DNA from: Bacteroidota bacterium
GTDB taxonomy: Bacteria; Bacteroidota; Bacteroidia; Flavobacteriales; Flavobacteriaceae
Direction of reading: 5' to 3'
Assembly (NCBI GenBank): GCA_018829465.1
Contig: JAHJTN010000005.1
Location: 1 to 64,000, forward strand
DNA: 64,000 nt
Each line of letters opens with the position of its first letter. Positions within the stretch are counted from its first letter, which is position 1. Positions 3,022 to 58,249 of this stretch are shown here, in pieces. The translations under genes were made by a program, and so were the position numbers. The notes beneath the pieces were generated by a model, which ran no database searches, was not told where the DNA came from, and was given only the letters and a program-made list of their open reading frames with translations.

Positions 3022-3480
3022 ATATGATGAATGTTGAATTATGAATATTTAATTTATAACGAATAACTTATAACAAATAAGGTATAACCCCTATTGGCTC
3101 TTGGCTAATGGCTATTGTCTCTTGGCTTCAAAACAAATAACGAATAACCAATCACGAAAGAACCCTACAACCTTTAGCTGTCACCCTGAACTTATTTCAG
3201 GGTCTTGCCCCTCGACTGCGCTCGGGGTGACATTCCATTGAGTGAAGATGCTAAACCAAGTTCAGCATGACAGTTTTTAGAGTTAGTGGGATTTAATGAT
3301 ACGATGATGTGATGAATTTAAATGCTGAATAAGTAACGATTAACAAATAACAAATAACCCCTAATGCCTTTTGGCTAATGCCTACTGGCTATTGGCTCTT
3401 GGCTTCAAAACAAATAGCGAATAACCAATAACAAACAACTCTACTGGCTATTGCCTATTGCCTTTTGGCTTTTTCCTGAA
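3022..3480. repeat. Composite dispersed repeat, copy 2, plus AATAAC/GGCTAATGCC array
   Basis: No gene is present. The blocks of copy 1 recur in the same order. The inverted-repeat element is at 3179-3273, followed by a GATACGATGATGTGATG block and then more AATAAC and GGCTAATGCC words up to the next gene. Because this copy is uninterrupted, it shows the likely arrangement of copy 1 before the toxin-antitoxin insertion. Confidence 0.85.
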
Positions 3481-4739: not shown

Positions 4740-5220
4740 TTATGATACGATGATGCGATGAAACAAACCTAATGCCTTCTGCCTAATGGCTATTGGCTAA
4801 TGCCTTTTAAACCAATCACGAAAGAACCCTACAACCTTTAGCTGTCACCCTGAACTTGTTTCAGGGTCTTGCCCCTCGACTGCGCTCGGGGTGACATTCC
4901 ATTGAGTGAAGATGCTGAACCAAGTTCAGCATGACAGTTTTTAGAGTTAGTGAGATTTAATGATACGATGAATTGATGAATTTTGAATTGTAAATGTTGA
5001 ATAAGTAACGATTAACAAATAACGTATAACCCCTAATGCCTTTTGGCTATTGCCTAATGACTATAGCCTAATGACTTCAAACAAATAACGAATAACCTAT
5101 AACAAACAACTCTACTGGCTAATGCCTATTGGCTCTTGGCTAATAACTTCAAACAAATAACGAATAACCTATAACAAATAACGCCTAACGCCTAATGCCT
5201 AATACCTATTGGCTCTCCCC
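4740..5220. repeat. Composite dispersed repeat, copy 3, plus AATAAC/GGCTAATGCC array
   Basis: No gene is present. The inverted-repeat element lies at 4843-4937, with the same flanks (AACCAATCACGAAAGAACCC before, TTTTTAGAGTTAGTG after) as the other two copies. It is followed by GATACGATGAATTGATG and then several AATAAC and GGCTAATGCC units until the stop codon of the next gene. Confidence 0.85.
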
Positions 5221-7379: not shown

Positions 7380-8351
7380 TTACTCCTCAACGGAAACCGC
7401 AACCACGCCGGCTGTTTGCAAATAACGCTCGGCATCCAAAGCAGCCATACAACCCGTACCCGCGGCCGTCACAGCCTGTCTGTATTCTTTATCTTGAACA
7501 TCCCCGGCTGCAAAAACTCCGGGTTTGGAAGTCTTGGTCGATTTCCCTTTTGTAATTAAATAACCGGTTGCATCCATTTCCAGCTGGCCCTTGAATATGT
7601 CTGTATTGGGCTTGTGGCCTATCGCAATAAACAAACCGGTCACTTTGATTTCCTCTTTCTCCCCGGTTTGGTTGTTTACCATCCGAATGCCCTCTACTAC
7701 CGTATCGCCAAGCACCTCTTCTACTTCGGTATTGTATTTCACAACCAAATTAGCCGTGTTTTTAACACGATGTTGCATGGCTTTTGACGCACGCATATAA
7801 TCTTTGCGCACCAACATGGTTACTTTTTTACAGATGTTGGCAAGATAGGTCGCTTCCTCTGCTGCAGTATCGCCACCACCCACTATAGCCACTTCTTGGC
7901 CTTTGTAGAAAAAGCCATCGCAAACCGCACATGCCGATACGCCTCCGCCGCGCAAACGCTGTTCGCTGGGCAAATTGAGATAGCGCGCCGAAGCTCCGGT
8001 AGAAATAATCACAGACTCCGCTTCCAATTGTTTGTTTCCGTCTATGGTTACTTTGTGAAGCCCACCTTCCTCCTCGCTAAATGAAACCGCCGTGGCCATG
8101 CCCATGCGTACATCGGTACCAAATCTTTCGGCCTGTTTTTGAAGATCTACCATCATAGAAGGCCCATCTACCCCGTTGGGATAACCGGGAAAATTATCTA
8201 CTTCTGTGGTGGTGGTAAGCTGCCCGCCCGGCTCCATACCGGTGTATAAAACCGGCTTCAAATCGGCACGTGCGGCATAAATAGCCGCCGTATAACCCGC
8301 TGGTCCGGAACCTATAATCAAACATTTTATTCGCTCAGGATTTGTTGACAT
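7380..8351 (-). CDS. trxB: Thioredoxin-disulfide reductase
   Basis: A 323-residue flavoprotein of the low-Mr thioredoxin reductase family. An FAD-binding GSGPAGYTAAIYAARA motif lies near the N-terminus, the redox-active CAVC pair sits in SACAVCDGFFYKGQ near residue 145, an NADPH-binding VVGGGDTAAEEA-type motif follows, and FAAGDVQDKEYRQAVTAAG is near the C-terminus. It transfers electrons from NADPH to thioredoxin in the cytoplasm. It is a single gene, convergent with the MBL-rhodanese gene. Confidence 0.95.
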   Translation of the reverse strand: MSTNPERIKCLIIGSGPAGYTAAIYAARADLKPVLYTGMEPGGQLTTTTEVDNFPGYPNGVDGPSMMVDLQKQAERFGTDVRMGMATAVSFSEEEGGLHKVTIDGNKQLEAESVIISTGASARYLNLPSEQRLRGGGVSACAVCDGFFYKGQEVAIVGGGDTAAEEATYLANICKKVTMLVRKDYMRASKAMQHRVKNTANLVVKYNTEVEEVLGDTVVEGIRMVNNQTGEKEEIKVTGLFIAIGHKPNTDIFKGQLEMDATGYLITKGKSTKTSKPGVFAAGDVQDKEYRQAVTAAGTGCMAALDAERYLQTAGVVAVSVEE

Positions 8352-8382
8352 AATCTAAATTTTTAAATATAAATAAACACAT

Positions 8383-8390
8383 CAAAGATA
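8383..8390 (-). promoter_or_regulatory. -7 promoter box TATCTTTG of trxB
   Basis: On the minus strand TATCTTTG matches TAnnTTTG, 31 nt before the trxB start codon. Confidence 0.55.
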
Positions 8391-8764
8391 GGGTTTATCC
8401 AAATTTTTAGCATCAAAATTTATTCACAAATTCTAATTGCACGCCCAATTGCATACATAGCTTCGAAAACTAAAATTAGGTCAGGCTGAATTTTACAAAG
8501 TCGAAGTTGTAAACAAATCTTTTTAAGGCTGATACTAGAAAAAAAACATGGCATCTGCCTCCAATTAATATCCATTTATTTTGAGGGGCATTTGAAAGGG
8601 TATTAACATTTTTTTATCAAACTTTGCTACCGACTTTTTTATCTTAGCAAACAAATTGATGAAACATCTTTGAAATATGCATCAACAAATATCTTAAAAT
8701 AAATTGTTGTATTTTTCAGATATTAAGATTGCGTTTGGCCAATAAAAATTAATCCAAAGAACCG
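8391..8764. other. AT-rich intergenic region without a recognised gene
   Basis: Apart from the trxB promoter at its left edge, this stretch shows no plausible coding frame or structured RNA. A weak promoter-like AACTTTGCTACCG word at about 8622-8634 resembles one upstream of the argH repeat (AACTTTGCTACGC on the minus strand) and may drive the mini-ORF array that follows. Confidence 0.4.
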
Positions 8765-8787
8765 ATGAAAATAAATAATATAAATAG

Positions 8788-8868
8788 ATGAAACGCCCAT
8801 GTAAAATTATTGACACACAGGGGCATGATTATCCTAGGGCGTTCCATCTGACCTTTGAAAAACAATAA
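8788..8868 (+). CDS. Mini-ORF 1 of leader repeat (26 codons)
   Basis: This ORF begins MKRPCKIIDTQ and ends RAFHLTFEKQ before TAA. It is A-rich upstream (AATAATATAAATAG). It resembles the mini-ORF at 58169-58249 at both ends (MKRP versus VKRP, and RAFHLTFEKQ versus RAFRLTFEKQ). Translation is not proven, and conservation may be at the nucleic-acid level. Confidence 0.45.
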   Translation: MKRPCKIIDTQGHDYPRAFHLTFEKQ

Positions 8869-8878
8869 TTATAAACAG

Positions 8879-8959
8879 ATGAAACGAGCCATGCTAAAAA
8901 GTGTAACACACAAGAGAATGATTATTAGCGAGTTCCATCTGACCGATAAAAATAAATAA
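8879..8959 (+). CDS. Mini-ORF 2 of leader repeat (26 codons)
   Basis: This ORF begins MKRAMLKSVTHK and ends EFHLTDKNK before TAA. It aligns with unit 1 at the DNA level through small indels that change the internal frame but restore it before FHLT. It starts 10 nt after the previous stop. Confidence 0.4.
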   Translation: MKRAMLKSVTHKRMIISEFHLTDKNK

Positions 8960-8968
8960 TATAAACAG

Positions 8969-9052
8969 ATGAAATCGAGCATGACGAAAGCGACACACAG
9001 AGAGATAATTATTTTCCATGCGAGATTCCATGTGACCATTAAAAGACAATAA
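8969..9052 (+). CDS. Mini-ORF 3 of leader repeat (27 codons)
   Basis: This ORF begins MKSSMTKATHRE and ends RFHVTIKRQ before TAA, 10 nt before the start of the sugar dehydrogenase gene. Its arms differ from unit 1, but a C-to-T change in one arm is matched by a G-to-A change in the other (GAAATC with GATTCC instead of GAAAC with GTTCC). Confidence 0.4.
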   Translation: MKSSMTKATHREIIIFHARFHVTIKRQ

Positions 9053-9062
9053 ATATAAACAC

Positions 9063-10185
9063 ATGAAAACTGCCATTAATTTACTACTTCCTGTCTGCTT
9101 CCTGATGCTGACAACAGCCTGTCAGGCACAAAATGAAAGCGGCTACGAAAGCGAAAAACTCAACTACACCTTGGAGCCGGTCATCACAGGGCTTGAAATT
9201 CCTTGGGGTATGGTTTTTTTGCCCGATGGCAGTATGTTGATTTCCGAAAAAAGTGGCAAATTAATTCACCTCAAAAACGGGACACAAACCGAAATTAAAA
9301 ACGTACCTGAAGTTTACAAACGCGGACAAGGCGGCCTGCTCGATTTGGAACTTCACCCCGATTACAAAAACAATGGTTGGATATATATCACTTATGCCGC
9401 TGCTGAGGGCGAAGGCGAGGGTGGCAACACGGCACTTATCAGAGCCAAACTCATAAACGGCAGCCTGACCGAGATTCAAAAATTGTACAAAGGCGAAGAA
9501 AACACCACCAAAGGACAGCATTTTGGTTCGCGTATCGAATTTGACAACCAAGGCTATCTCTATTTCTCAATTGGCGACCGGGGAAACCGCGATCAAAATC
9601 CGCAAAGTATCACCCGTGACGGTGGTAAAATATACCGCCTTCACGACGATGGCCGCATCCCGGAAGACAATCCTTTTGTCAACGAGGCCAACGCCAAGAA
9701 AGCTATTTACTCCTACGGACACAGAAATCCGCAGGGTTTGATAAAGCATCCGGTAACCGGAGAAATTTGGGACCACGAACACGGCCCCCATGGGTGGCGA
9801 CGAAATCAATATTATTCAAAGCGGTAAAAATTACGGCTGGCCGAGCATCACTTATGGCATTAACTACAACGGCACGCCCATCACAGATCAAACGGAAGCA
9901 CCCGGCCTTGAACAACCCATACACTATTGGGTGCCTTCCATAGCACCTAGCGGCATGGCATTTGTCACCTCTGATGTATATCCGGCTTGGAAAGGCAACC
10001 TGATGGTAGGTTCGTTAAAATTTCAGTTGCTGGAAAGGCTCGAAATGGACGGGCGCAAAGTCACGCATCGCGAAAACCTAATGTTGGGCGTGGGCAGAGT
10101 CCGCAACGTTCGCCAAGGTCCGGACGGATATTTATACGTCGCATTTGAAGGGAAGGGCATTTATAAAGTAGTTCCGAAAAAGTAA
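9063..10185 (+). pseudogene. PQQ-dependent sugar dehydrogenase (GDH/sorbosone family), frameshifted
   Basis: The reading frame is split. Frame one (9063-9827) has a lipoprotein-type signal (LLLPVCFLMLTTACQ), then the beta-propeller signatures LEIPWGMVFLPDGSMLISEK, GQGGLLDLELHPDY and GHRNPQGL. It should continue as EHGPMGGDEINIIQ, which lies in the next frame (from 9790) and runs to GYLYVAFEGKGIYKVVPKK at 10185. The shift comes from one extra C in a run of five C's just before ATGGGTGG (about 9784-9788). Joined, it is a complete ~373-residue periplasmic aldose/sorbosone dehydrogenase that passes electrons to a cytochrome. A sequencing error, a true pseudogene and a slippery phase-variable tract are all possible. 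The cytochrome c gene follows 9 bp later. Confidence 0.85.
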
Positions 10186-20086: not shown

Positions 20087-20200
20087 GTGTTTATATTTAT
20101 TGATTTTCAATGGTCATGCTTCGACTCCGCTCAGCACAGGCATGGAACACCCTAACCCATCATACCTTTGTGTGTCAGTATTTTTACATGGTTGTTTCAT
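20087..20200 (-). repeat. Mini-ORF leader repeat upstream of argH, one unit
   Basis: On the minus strand it begins TACATGAAACAACCATGTAAAA and has GACACACAAAGGTATGAT, GGGTGTTCCATG and a final ACCATTGAAAATCAATAA followed by ATATAAACACATG. A ~25-bp segment containing GCTGAGCGGAGTCGAAGC is inserted after TTCCAT. The arm change CAACC with GGGTG keeps pairing relative to CGCCC with GGGCG at 8788. Orientation and position (ending at the argH start) match the other loci. Confidence 0.7.
20114..20200 (-). CDS. Mini-ORF of argH leader repeat (28 codons)
   Basis: This ORF begins MKQPCKNTDTQRYDG and ends in MPVLSGVEA before TGA, 27 nt upstream of the argH ATG. The inserted segment shifts the frame, so the usual FHLTxxxKQ ending is lost. 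Translation is unproven. Confidence 0.35.
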   Translation of the reverse strand: MKQPCKNTDTQRYDGLGCSMPVLSGVEA

Positions 20201-28277: not shown

Positions 28278-28292
28278 GCCGGAAAGGTATTT

Positions 28293-28326
28293 AAACCTCA
28301 CAGGTTTTGAAAACCTGTGAGGTTTT
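28293..28326. terminator. Bidirectional terminator between the AraC gene and argB
   Basis: AAACCTCACAGGTTTT-GA-AAACCTGTGAGGTTTT is a nearly perfect palindrome with A/T tracts on both sides. It can serve the plus-strand regulator gene and the minus-strand arginine operon, which converge here. Confidence 0.85.
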
Positions 28327-28342
28327 ATTTGAAATTTATTTT

Positions 28343-32141: not shown

Positions 32142-32309
32142 GTGCTAATTTGAAAATATGTTAATTTGAAAATTTGAAAATGATATAATTACTCATAATC
32201 TACAACCAATAACTTTTATCATCCATCATTTAATTCTTTTTCTATTGCCTTTTGCCTATTGCCTATTGCCTTTTGGCTAATGCCTAATGCCTAATGCCTA
32301 ATGCCTCCA
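32142..32309. repeat. Dispersed low-complexity repeat words between proC and argD
   Basis: Noncoding. It contains TATTGCCTTTTGCCTATTGCC and a run of TAATGCC words (TAATGCCTAATGCCTAATGC), the same family as at 1-505, preceded by A/T-rich ATTTGAAAAT words. Confidence 0.75.
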
Positions 32310-33104
32310 TCATTTAATCGAATTAATTTTCTCATACGATTTCACCAAACCTTTGATCAGCGCCGAACTCATGCCGGCGTGTTCCATTTCGTTGAGCCCG
32401 GCGATGGTGCAGCCGCGCGGCGTGGTCACCTTGTCAATCTCCGTCTCCGGATGGTTTTGCGATTCGAGCAACAAACTGGCCGCACCCAGACAAGTTTGCA
32501 CCGCCAGTTCTTTGGCTTCTGAGGCATCAAAACCCAACTGAATGGCACCTTGCGTTGTGGCGCGGATCAAACGCATCCAGAAAGCGATGCCACTGGCGCA
32601 AATCACGGTGGCGGCCTGCATCATTTCGTCTTCAATCAGCAGCGTTTTTCCGATGGGTTGAAAAACCGCCTCGGCCCATTTTACTTTGCCTTGCGCGGCG
32701 CGGTTCGCACTGAGGCAGGTCATGGATTGCCCGACGGCGCTGGCCGTGTTGGGCATGCTGCGGACGATGGGGATGTGTGCGCCCAAAACCGATTCGAAAA
32801 CGGCGATGTTCCTGCCTGTGACGGTCGAAATAACCAACTTGTTTTCGGTAATTTCCGGTTTGATTTCTTCTAATATCCCAGACAGTTGCCCGGGTTGGAC
32901 AGCCACAATGATCACATCCGAATTTCGGACGGCTTCCAGATTGTCTGTCCCAATTTTGGCTTGCGGATATTTGGTAAATGCCATCAACGAAGCCGGGTTG
33001 CGCTTGGTCAAATAGAGCGATTCACAAACAGCTTGTTCGCTTTCCAAAAGGCCTTTGGCGATGGACAAGCCTAAATTTCCAGCACCGAGTATGGCTATTT
33101 TCAT
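32310..33104 (-). CDS. proC: Pyrroline-5-carboxylate reductase
   Basis: A 264-residue NAD(P)-binding enzyme. It has AILGAGNLGLSIAKGLLES at the N-terminus, VQPGQLSGILEEI, VRSMPNTASAVGQSMT, and a C-terminal dimerisation helix with TTPRGCTIAGLNEMEHAGMS, the family signature. It reduces P5C to proline. It starts close to the upstream GNAT gene, with a ~125-bp repeat-rich gap. Confidence 0.93.
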   Translation of the reverse strand: MKIAILGAGNLGLSIAKGLLESEQAVCESLYLTKRNPASLMAFTKYPQAKIGTDNLEAVRNSDVIIVAVQPGQLSGILEEIKPEITENKLVISTVTGRNIAVFESVLGAHIPIVRSMPNTASAVGQSMTCLSANRAAQGKVKWAEAVFQPIGKTLLIEDEMMQAATVICASGIAFWMRLIRATTQGAIQLGFDASEAKELAVQTCLGAASLLLESQNHPETEIDKVTTPRGCTIAGLNEMEHAGMSSALIKGLVKSYEKINSIK

Positions 33105-33230
33105 AATCTAATGATTTGATGATATGATGATTCGATAATTTGATGATTTGATAATGCAGCAATGAATTTACCAACTTTAAACTTTGAACAAATAACCAAT
33201 AACGTATAACCAACTTTTCCTTAATGCATA
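33105..33230. repeat. GATGAT and AATAAC repeat words between GNAT and proC
   Basis: Noncoding. It is made of AATGATTTGATGATATGATG-type words and ends in AACAAATAACCAATAACGTATAAC, related to the composite repeats of the left-hand region. Confidence 0.7.
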
Positions 33231-33686
33231 TTAACCTTTCAAACTTTTCTCAAAACACAAACTGTTTTGCACCTGCGCGTACTGTCCGTAATTCGGGATT
33301 TGTTGATACCCACTTTTTTGGTACAACCTGATGGCACTACTTTGCCGGGTCCCGGTTTCCAAAATGCATTTTTCAAAACCCAATTCGCCGGCCCATTTTT
33401 CCAATTCCGCCAACACTTTGGCCGCAATCCCTTTTCCCCTGTGGTCCGGCGCAACATACATCCGTTTGATTTCCATTGTACAAGAATCGTATGCTTTAAT
33501 CGCCCCGCAGCCTACGGGTGTTTCCTTTTCAAAAGCCAATAACACATATTTGATGGCATATAGCTTATTAAATTGATCGTAAAATGCATGTTCATCGCCG
33601 TCCGTAACCGCCAAATCGGCATCAAGTTGTTGAACCAATTTGATGAAATCTACATTTTCCGCATTTGTCCGAACTGTTTTAATCAT
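33231..33686 (-). CDS. GNAT family N-acetyltransferase
   Basis: A 151-residue GNAT. It has VLLAFEKETPVGCGAIKAYD, the acetyl-CoA loop YVAPDHRGKGIAAKVLAELE, and ILETGTRQSSAIRLYQKSGY near the end. The ATG at 33686 is preferred. An in-frame ATG 12 nt upstream lies in a degenerate ATGATT repeat that probably drifted into the frame. Its place between proC and argC makes it one of two candidates for acylating glutamate, although small GNATs of this shape often act on other substrates. Confidence 0.82.
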   Translation of the reverse strand: MIKTVRTNAENVDFIKLVQQLDADLAVTDGDEHAFYDQFNKLYAIKYVLLAFEKETPVGCGAIKAYDSCTMEIKRMYVAPDHRGKGIAAKVLAELEKWAGELGFEKCILETGTRQSSAIRLYQKSGYQQIPNYGQYAQVQNSLCFEKSLKG

Positions 33687-33783
33687 TTGATGATTCAATG
33701 ATTTGATAATTTAATGATATGATTTTCTGATAATATTTAATGGCTTTATTAATTACCCAAACTTTAAACAAATATTCCCATTC
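33687..33783. repeat. GATGAT-type repeat words between argC and GNAT
   Basis: Noncoding. It has ATTTGATGATTCAATGATTT-like words and an ACAAATATTCCCATTCC end, of the same family as the gap at 33105-33230. Confidence 0.6.
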
Positions 33784-58043: not shown

Positions 58044-58056
58044 GAGTCTATAATTA

Positions 58057-58158
58057 TTATTTTTTCAACGGCCTTGCTTCGACTGTCTCAGCACAGGCAT
58101 GGAACGCACTACGGTAATCATACTCCTGTATGTTACTCTTTCTACGTGGGCGTTTCAT
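58057..58158 (-). CDS. Mini-ORF 2 of PspC leader (33 codons)
   Basis: It begins MKRPRRKSNIQEYDYRSAFH and ends TVEARPLKK before TAA. The insert after AFH replaces the usual LTFEKQ ending. It lies 13 nt before the PspC start. Confidence 0.4.
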   Translation of the reverse strand: MKRPRRKSNIQEYDYRSAFHACAETVEARPLKK

Positions 58159-58168
58159 CTGTTTATTT

Positions 58169-58249
58169 TTATTGTTTTTCAAAGGTCAGACGGAACGCCC
58201 TAGGATAATTATACTCCTGCATGTTACTCTTTCTACGTGGGCGTTTCAC
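58169..58249 (-). CDS. Mini-ORF 1 of PspC leader (26 codons, GTG start)
   Basis: It begins VKRPRRKSNMQEYNYPRAF and ends RLTFEKQ before TAA. It starts about 12 nt after the transcription start expected from the TATTTTTG box at 58267-58274. Confidence 0.42.
   Translation of the reverse strand: MKRPRRKSNMQEYNYPRAFRLTFEKQ

Follow-up and report, generated by a model that had tools for sequence, protein, structure and literature searches.

The window, meaning the whole 64,000-nucleotide stretch of DNA that was analysed, carries at 8788–9062 three tandem units of 91, 90 and 94 bp, every one opening with ATGAAA. Tandem Repeats Finder delimits this array as 8768–9068, with a period of 91, 3.3 copies and a score of 271. 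Each unit holds a mini-ORF (8788–8868, 26 codons; 8879–8959, 26 codons; 8969–9052, 27 codons), 10, 9 and 10 nt separate the stops from the ATG that follows, and the final ATG, at 9063, is the start of a dehydrogenase gene. The geometry that had been proposed in a sequence-only reading of this DNA, namely ATGAAA, 26–27 codons, a stop, about 10 nt and the next ATG, is borne out for these three units. The dehydrogenase gene is broken into two overlapping frames, 9063–9827 and 9790–10185, which match PF07995 positions 1–204 and then 204–325, the split reflecting either a frameshift or a sequencing error. The features of this locus and of two other sites in the window are as follows.

8761–8787, plus strand: remnant of the 3′ leader of a further unit, older and now decayed (ACCGATGAAAATAAATAATATAAATAG), read from sequence; it matches other unit leaders (direct repeats D1/D2)
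8788–8878, plus strand: unit 1, R1 match of 115.4 bits; P1 formed by AACGCCC (8792–8798) with GGGCGTT (8837–8843), helix B by CATCTG (8845–8850) with CAGATG (8876–8881)
8879–8968, plus strand: unit 2, of the CGAGC...GCGAG subtype, with tandem G·A mismatches in P1
8969–9062, plus strand: unit 3, the most diverged, with a CATGTG/CACATG version of helix B
9063–10185, plus strand: glucose/sorbosone dehydrogenase family (GSDH) gene, PF07995 by profile match, beginning at the last ATG of the array
20087–20200, minus strand: single unit with a CTGTGCTGAGCG..GTCGAAG palindrome in its right arm; the last ATG (20086) opens a 429-codon ORF
58044–58249, minus strand: two-unit array whose leftmost codon is GTG; the last ATG opens a 75-codon ORF

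Many units, among them those at 20087–20200 and 58044–58158 in the window, carry a second palindrome (approximately CCTGTGCTGAGCGCAGTCGAAGCATGACC) at a fixed position within the right arm. A length of 111–116 nt is found in 28 of 134 units of this genome, and the composite units with the second palindrome still finish in a leader and ATGAAA. The window also holds repeats of other kinds: arrays with 7-, 14-, 21- and 65–72-bp periods (CTAATGGCT..., AACAAATAACG..., CTATTGCCTTTTGCC...) at 1–515, 1813–1916, 3050–3127, 5044–5203 and 32242–32306, and 8-, 13- and 16-bp repeats (TTTGATAATATGATGA, TTTAATGA) at 33099–33155 and 33678–33742.

The array at the dehydrogenase gene is more than a chance arrangement, because the same unit recurs at many other sites of the genome (3,065,749 bases in 55 contigs). 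Used as a query, the array gives at least 47 matches, with 40 of 134 candidates scored, and the 12-mer AAACASATGAAA occurs 151 times as against four for its reversed control. A covariance model, R1, built from 44 units, returns at least 148 matches at E ≤ 1e-3 (150 of 2326 candidates scored). Altogether 153 units lie in 107 arrays, on both strands and interspersed, within 97 stretches that amount to 481,059 bases with small overlaps; 73 of the arrays are single, 23 double, 10 triple and 1 quadruple. Six of 86 units in an early set were undelimited, and the statistics of unit length and reading frame refer to 134 units, the remaining 19 of the 153 lying outside that set. A composite of about 150 bp was examined as a candidate for a longer, autonomous version, and it seems to be a decayed relative joined to another palindrome. 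It occurs at three loci (L020 3046–3250, L177 1349–1536 and L182 1573–1759), in each of which a different right half is followed by a conserved stretch and a AACCTCACAGG palindrome, and the sequence ends without a gene start.

The position of the dehydrogenase start at the end of an array is the rule rather than the exception. In a scripted search, 86 of the 107 arrays have an ORF of 60 aa or more beginning at the final ATG, and five further arrays (L135, L155, L172, L173 and L175) have a gene start at the final ATG or, in L135, 5 nt on. The sequence-only reading had held that units lying far from starts would count against the peptide idea; this is not what is seen, the total standing at 91 of 107 arrays with the final ATG at a gene start or at most 5 nt away. 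Two arrays (L009 and L012) run off contigs, and 14 have no recognisable start: L016, L020 (first), L022, L037 (minus), L041, L141, L153, L160, L161 (second), L177 (first), L178, L181, L182 and L184. Several of these 14 look decayed, and three lie within coding sequence, that in L041 splitting a reading frame in two where an in-frame ATGAAA follows codon 53 and those in L022 and L153 standing at the 3′ end. Insertions within genes are rare, as selection would make them. Outside the arrays, the same stretches contain ATGAAA at 56 starts and at 94 intergenic non-start sites, as well as 336 times in sense and 107 times in antisense CDS; a second, cruder ORF caller counts 48 starts and 158 intergenic sites, both callers being crude and their results different. 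Comparison of the arrays (91:11, start to non-start) with background ATGAAA (56:94) gives a Fisher p of 2e-17. Starts are preferred, then, also when the comparison is confined to sites at which insertion breaks no gene, a bias that may come from targeting or from selection. Two other genomes show the same tendency. Of 18 near-identical copies read in G006, 14 are at gene starts and 4 are off (14:4, p 0.002), and in G061 a gene of at least 100 codons begins at the final ATG in 11 of 13 readable stretches, the other two having no recognisable start. Eight of the 40 stretches in this reading are uncounted through having no match to the pattern (2 of 20 from G006, 5 of 18 from G061 and 1 of 2 from G088).

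Comparison with related genomes reveals the corresponding genes without the element. Of 40 downstream proteins set against 40 stretches of a same-genus relative, 14 found a match. Seven of these align from residue 1 and have an ATG there; their leader differs, and the 60 nt inspected contain no element. Two of the orthologues begin one and three codons earlier, and the others are distant or partial matches. Since codon 2 is GAA, ACA or AGA instead of AAA in three of the seven element-free orthologues, a fixed ATGAAA target is unproved. An empty site can be followed more closely in G006, where a gene that we take to be argG carries an element that is missing from three sister species (G395, G396 and G397), with flanks 79–83% identical on both sides. 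G396 and G397 have one ATGAAAAAATTAG, and G006 has at the equivalent site ATGAAA, the element and ATGAAAAAATTAG, hence two ATGAAA 91 bp apart; G395 is without the element there but has about 40 nt of another leader. An upstream reading frame of at least 208 codons in G006 stops 1 nt before the ATG of this site, so that the insertion occurred at an operon-internal start with no room on either side. In the genome under study, two genes within a trp operon, presumably trpD and trpF, also carry elements. The names argG, rpiB, serC, trp and coaD are our own assignments from the sequences, GSDH alone having been identified by profile match. Empty sites in close relatives and dispersed near-identical copies, the marks of a mobile element, are thus both present here.

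In most arrays, DNA to the left of the first unit is outside the repeat. Its composition at positions −20 to −1 (A 0.46, G 0.10 in 77 arrays) is leader-like, close to that of unoccupied starts (A 0.43, G 0.08) and apart from that of non-start sites (0.33 and 0.18), and between −40 and −20 the same 77 arrays do not differ from other sites. On this compositional evidence the unique left-flanking DNA looks like the native translation leader of the gene. The motif TAnnTTTG, which we take to be the −7 promoter motif of Bacteroidetes, occurs in the −70 to −10 region of 14 of 98 arrays, compared with 4 of 98 on the opposite strand. Among 83 anchored arrays the left border codon is followed as ATGAAA in 68, GTGAAA in 3, ACGAAA in 2 and AAGAAA in 1, the rest being other sequences, some of them mis-anchored. 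Because GTG, ACG and AAG also occur there, the left codon alone is no proof of a native start. The idea that GTG at the left border is a sign of a native start was dropped, because the border pattern first used had required TGA; ACG (2) and AAG (1) appear beside GTG (3). The presence of ATGAA at both borders may reflect duplication of the target, or the sequence may belong to the element.

The unit sequences additionally support a common fold. In alignment A1, helix A, which joins the left and right arms, is paired in 92.6% of cells, and helix B, which joins the right arm to the next start codon, in 98.3%. In the wider alignment A2, RNAalifold finds the hairpin P1 and helix B unprompted; these are paired in 93.9% of cells as against 86.4 in shuffles and include 46 double-change cells as against 12.2, values that 0 of 500 shuffles reach in either case. 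The base following the right-arm CAT and the base preceding the final ATG form C–G in 34 and G–C in 27 of 68 units, with one C–C, one G–G and five other combinations in the remaining seven; the 68 are those units that fit the pairing pattern, and many are near-copies, so the p of 1.6e-15 is an overstatement. Covariation of this kind shows a hairpin P1 in the single strand, for example ACGCCC/GGGCGT or ACATCC/GGATGT, and a pairing of the right arm, TTnCAT(C/G)TG, with the 3′ end of the element itself, CA(G/C)ATGAA. This right arm is also able to pair with ATGAA at the left border. The base that precedes the native left codon shows no consistent pairing with the arm, being C in 0 of 27 elements of the G-type and G in 14 of 22 of the C-type, and some C-type left borders may follow older element leaders. 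Position 4 of P1 is usually mismatched in both alignments, with A facing C or A of the right arm. In a CGAGC/GCGAG subtype (window 8879–8968, L057, L062, L064 and L065), two Watson–Crick pairs of P1 are replaced by tandem G·A mismatches, and A2 shows this subtype to be kept across genera. An inner hairpin, P2, receives modest support, with z below −1 in 12 of 49 compared with 0 of 49 for a control loop, and is left unclaimed. Rfam 15 contains no match to the units in window 8000–10000 at E ≤ 5 or to those in six loci at E ≤ 1, the single match in each search falling elsewhere. The fold would act as RNA or as single-stranded DNA of either strand, the covariation fitting both.

The element extends well beyond this genome. 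Matches to R1 occur in 41 of 100 genomes of the same family, the genome under study included, a lower bound set by the stricter filters of that survey; G032 has none there and one match to R2. Across the phylum, R2 matches 33 of 296 genomes, with rough E-values and several single weak matches. Twenty of these carriers belong to the same family, 4 to another family of the order, 7 to two other families of the class and 2 to families elsewhere in the phylum. Among the carriers known by name are Winogradskyella, Flaviramulus, Xanthomarina gelatinilytica, Allomuricauda, Lacinutrix and Croceivirga, which suggests Flavobacteriaceae as the family. Twelve loci were read, and a gene begins at the final ATG or 4 nt after it in eight, a further unit follows in three, and neither is present in one (L265, from another class). 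Three genomes of the same genus have at least 148, 13 and 5 copies, the last genome being 82% complete. A record from Veillonellaceae (L124) proved to be a chance match to a 19-base pattern, with no element present. Some element-bearing genes are shared between genomes, namely that of L151 and L222, presumably serC, that of L059, L125 and L133, which encodes an MKFNTKTIHGG.. protein, and that of L048 and L246; the element sequences at these shared genes are partly quite different from one genome to another.

Taken together, these observations argue, with a probability of roughly 0.82, that each unit is one copy of a mobile element of Bacteroidota, non-coding and about 90 bp long, that inserts at start codons (approximately ATGAA, usually ATGAAA). 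That a leader segment was simply duplicated in tandem on the spot, with no mobility involved, is hardly credible as an alternative. Such a process would fit the 6 of 29 neighbouring unit pairs that are most like each other, and because of these pairs local duplication must also happen; in the other 23, mutual likeness is no greater than likeness to copies elsewhere (units of 80–96 nt, second-palindrome units left out, with identities expressed as gap-penalised scores). Within the window array, unit 1 has a score-based identity of 0.97 to a copy in L026 and unit 2 one of 0.99 to copies in L012, L014 and L009, the best match of unit 3 elsewhere being 0.70. Since most neighbours are no closer to each other than to copies elsewhere, repeated insertion is the main way in which arrays grow, and interspersion, empty sites and near-identical copies at unrelated genes refute duplication as the main process. 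The sequence-only reading suggested instead a stack of leader peptides or coupled re-initiation. On such an account ribosomes would translate each mini-ORF and restart 9–10 nt downstream, regulating the dehydrogenase. The codon counts and gaps of the window array agree with such a stack, as do the 41 of 134 units with a gap of 9 or 10 nt and the 41 of 105 ordinary units with an ORF of at least 24 codons ending before the next ATG, compared with a mean of 7.0 in mononucleotide shuffles, though the units have common ancestry and are not independent. Neither length nor frame is conserved, however. From the first ATG, the ORF has 15 codons in 24, 20 in 27, 26 in 35 and 28 in 13 of the 134 units, the rest being other, so that the 26–27 codons of the window units do not characterise the family in this genome or in other genera. 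Sorted by length modulo 3, the 105 ordinary units divide 44/35/26 over the three classes, and among 49 units from many genera the commonest ORF is a 4-codon stub (24 units, with five codons in 6 and two in 1, hence at most five codons in 31 of 49). A single unit makes up 73 of the 107 arrays, and the pairs of P1 change on both sides, which implies selection on folding and not on codons. The shared FHLT/FHVT peptide end is likewise a property of the three window units and absent as a family trait, and no conserved frame or peptide of the sort that marks a leader peptide or attenuator was found. With frames broken elsewhere, the peptide idea falls and the DNA or RNA repeat remains: of the earlier suggestion that either the peptide ends or the RNA is under selection, the structural half holds, in the form of two covarying helices, and the peptide half does not. 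Translation of a leader-peptide stack is accordingly a very unlikely account. The start–stop–start chain arises because the unit begins with a former start codon and the imported A-rich leader contains TAA, and the mini-ORFs are probably a by-product of the old start codon.

A role in regulation deserves more weight, though it too is improbable. The element might be a cis-regulatory RNA family, kept because it regulates translation of its genes; on this reading the right arm would switch between the left arm, extending P1 over the old start, and helix B, covering the start of the gene. Both pairings use the CAT of the right arm, RNAalifold recovers P1 and helix B unprompted, and helix B takes in the start codon and covaries, although a fold that served transposition as DNA would be expected to covary in the same way. 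Gene pairs that are homologous and carry the element in different genomes number 8 of 5853, compared with 63 of 146325 for control ORFs (raw odds ratio 3.2, p 0.006), but spurious ORFs are among the controls, and identical or very close genomes account for at least 3 of the 8 pairs. The element-bearing genes otherwise look unrelated, copy number falls from at least 148 to 5 within one genus, no Rfam family is matched, and a folding role leaves the empty sites and serial insertion unexplained. Somewhat less improbable, yet still unlikely, is that a Y1 (HuH) transposase moves the units as folded single-stranded DNA, which would make them REP-like or derived from IS200/IS605. In keeping with this mode, the hairpin has a near-constant mismatch (A4 opposite C or A of the right arm), one internal arm is complementary to the two ends, and a short, fixed sequence stands at each border. 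No consistent Y1 gene accompanies the element, however, 23 of 24 Y1 matches are without an element within about 1.5 kb, the GT[AG]G foot is absent, and no strand segregation is apparent by eye in G061, G204 and G297 among the matches listed.

The search for a mobilising enzyme bears directly on this last alternative. Among the Y1 (HuH) and RAYT candidates tested, none tracks the element. PF01797 is present in 11 of 17 chosen genomes, a count from which divergent Y1 genes may be missing; G070 carries the element without a PF01797 match, and all four such matches in G061 hold stops. A RAYT resembling subclass 2.6 is found in 24 of 100 genomes, 12 of which are carriers, compared with 29 carriers among the other 76 (p 0.35, carrier status being a lower bound). 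Neither set, PF01797 in 17 genomes or RAYT in 100, shows an association that would favour a Y1 transposase as the mover. R2 finds no element within about 1.5 kb on either side of 23 of the 24 Y1 matches, and the exception is an element copy at the gene preceding the Y1 gene of the genome under study. This single Y1 gene sits between repeats of another kind, with the palindrome AACCTCACAGGTTTT... It is listed as follows.

L136 5749–6300 (G000:C36, trp operon): RAYT-like Y1 gene flanked by AACCTCACAGGTTTTnAAAACCTGTGAGGTT palindromes (also window 28290–28328)

The AACCTCACAGGTTTTnAAAACCTGTGAGGTT palindromes occur elsewhere in the genome too, and the gene lies between what are presumably trpF and trpB. 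IS200 copies in G006 were considered as relatives and set aside, their ends being unrelated. IS200/IS605 elements insert into the lagging-strand template; in the closed genomes G061, G204 and G297 the strands are mixed along the chromosome, as judged by eye among the matches listed and with the origin unmapped.

Set against known systems, the element combines familiar traits in an unfamiliar place. It resembles REP/REPIN sequences and their TnpA-REP/RAYT (the REPtrons) in being short, folded, non-coding, present in many copies and without an internal transposase, and in probably being moved in trans. It differs from them in its location on start codons, its length of about 90 bp and the translation leader and start codon at its 3′ end, and no cognate TnpA-REP gene flanked by element copies was found at 24 Y1 loci with about 1.5 kb on each side. 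By eye, A1 and A2 also lack the GT[AG]G tetranucleotide at the hairpin foot, a trait that is likewise wanting in RAYT/REP subclass 2.6 (PMC6006769). Compared with MITEs of DDE transposons, which are also non-autonomous, small and repeated, and with which a border repeat of about 5 bp could be shared, the element has no terminal inverted repeats, its ends ACGCCC... and ...AAACAG not being inverted copies (A1 and A2, by eye), and its border is fixed, nearly always ATGAA, rather than a variable target duplication, with one ATGAAA in the empty site and two in the occupied one. IS200/IS605 elements move by means of hairpin-based ends, an internal guide complementary to the border sequence and a fixed short insertion site. 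These three traits recur here, with the differences that one arm could serve both ends, that the unit holds no transposase gene, that start codons are preferred and that there is no clear strand segregation among the matches listed. Integron attC sites are folded sites with a mismatch, conserved in structure and variable in sequence, in arrays that grow at a regenerated site; the element shares this sequence-variable fold with a mismatch and array growth by insertion at a regenerated site, but no cassettes are seen and about 90 separate gene starts are occupied. In leader-peptide attenuators and uORFs, too, short ORFs precede a structured leader and the start of a gene; the element is set apart from them by its mobility, its unrelated genes and its unconserved ORF length and frame. 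Rickettsia palindromic elements are small palindromic mobile repeats that repeatedly involve coding genes (PMC10969869); they go in frame inside reading frames, whereas the present element usually stands at the start codon and leaves the protein intact. The open-access literature searched contains no description of an element that inserts at start codons and takes over leader and start. Small folded mobile repeats are thus a known kind, and the start codon as insertion site is the new aspect.

With the start-codon element favoured here, insertion leaves a native-looking leader ending in ATG on the left, and on the right the gene begins with an ATG behind the A-rich leader of the element itself (AAAAACAATAAATATAAACA[G/C]-ATGAAA). 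As the insertion site is regenerated in this way, further copies can enter it and the arrays grow. An intermediate in the form of a folded single strand or a circle would require complementarity of one arm to both ends and to ATGAA, and the right arm may be such a built-in guide, holding both ends of the element on the folded single strand or circle and enabling an enzyme supplied in trans to cut and join at ATGAA. Ribosomes would use the final ATG, and insertion is probably tolerated because the gene keeps its reading frame and gains a standard Bacteroidota translation leader. A more ambitious version, to which we would give somewhat less than an even chance, is that the units represent an undescribed class of selfish element with the start codon as its niche, carried on a self-guided single strand, one arm of which pairs with its two ends, and cut and joined at ATGAA by an enzyme that favours regions of translation start. 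Should the enzyme prove to be of a new type, this would raise the novelty beyond that of a variant of known repeats, and CA[GC]ATGAAA preceded by a covarying CAT[CG]TG provides a handle for the search for the mobilising enzyme.

To our knowledge, mobile elements normally avoid or break genes. This element lands on the one position able to absorb an insertion. If it does form a selfish class of this kind, it can enter genes inside operons, and probably essential ones too, while leaving them unbroken, and become the translation start of about 90 genes in one genome. With its false upstream starts, every array also bears on the annotation of gene starts. Provided that the final ATG is used, the translation starts of many genes, operon-internal ones included, would have been rewritten at once, a process that bears on the persistence of non-coding parasites in compact genomes and on the evolution of Bacteroidota leaders.
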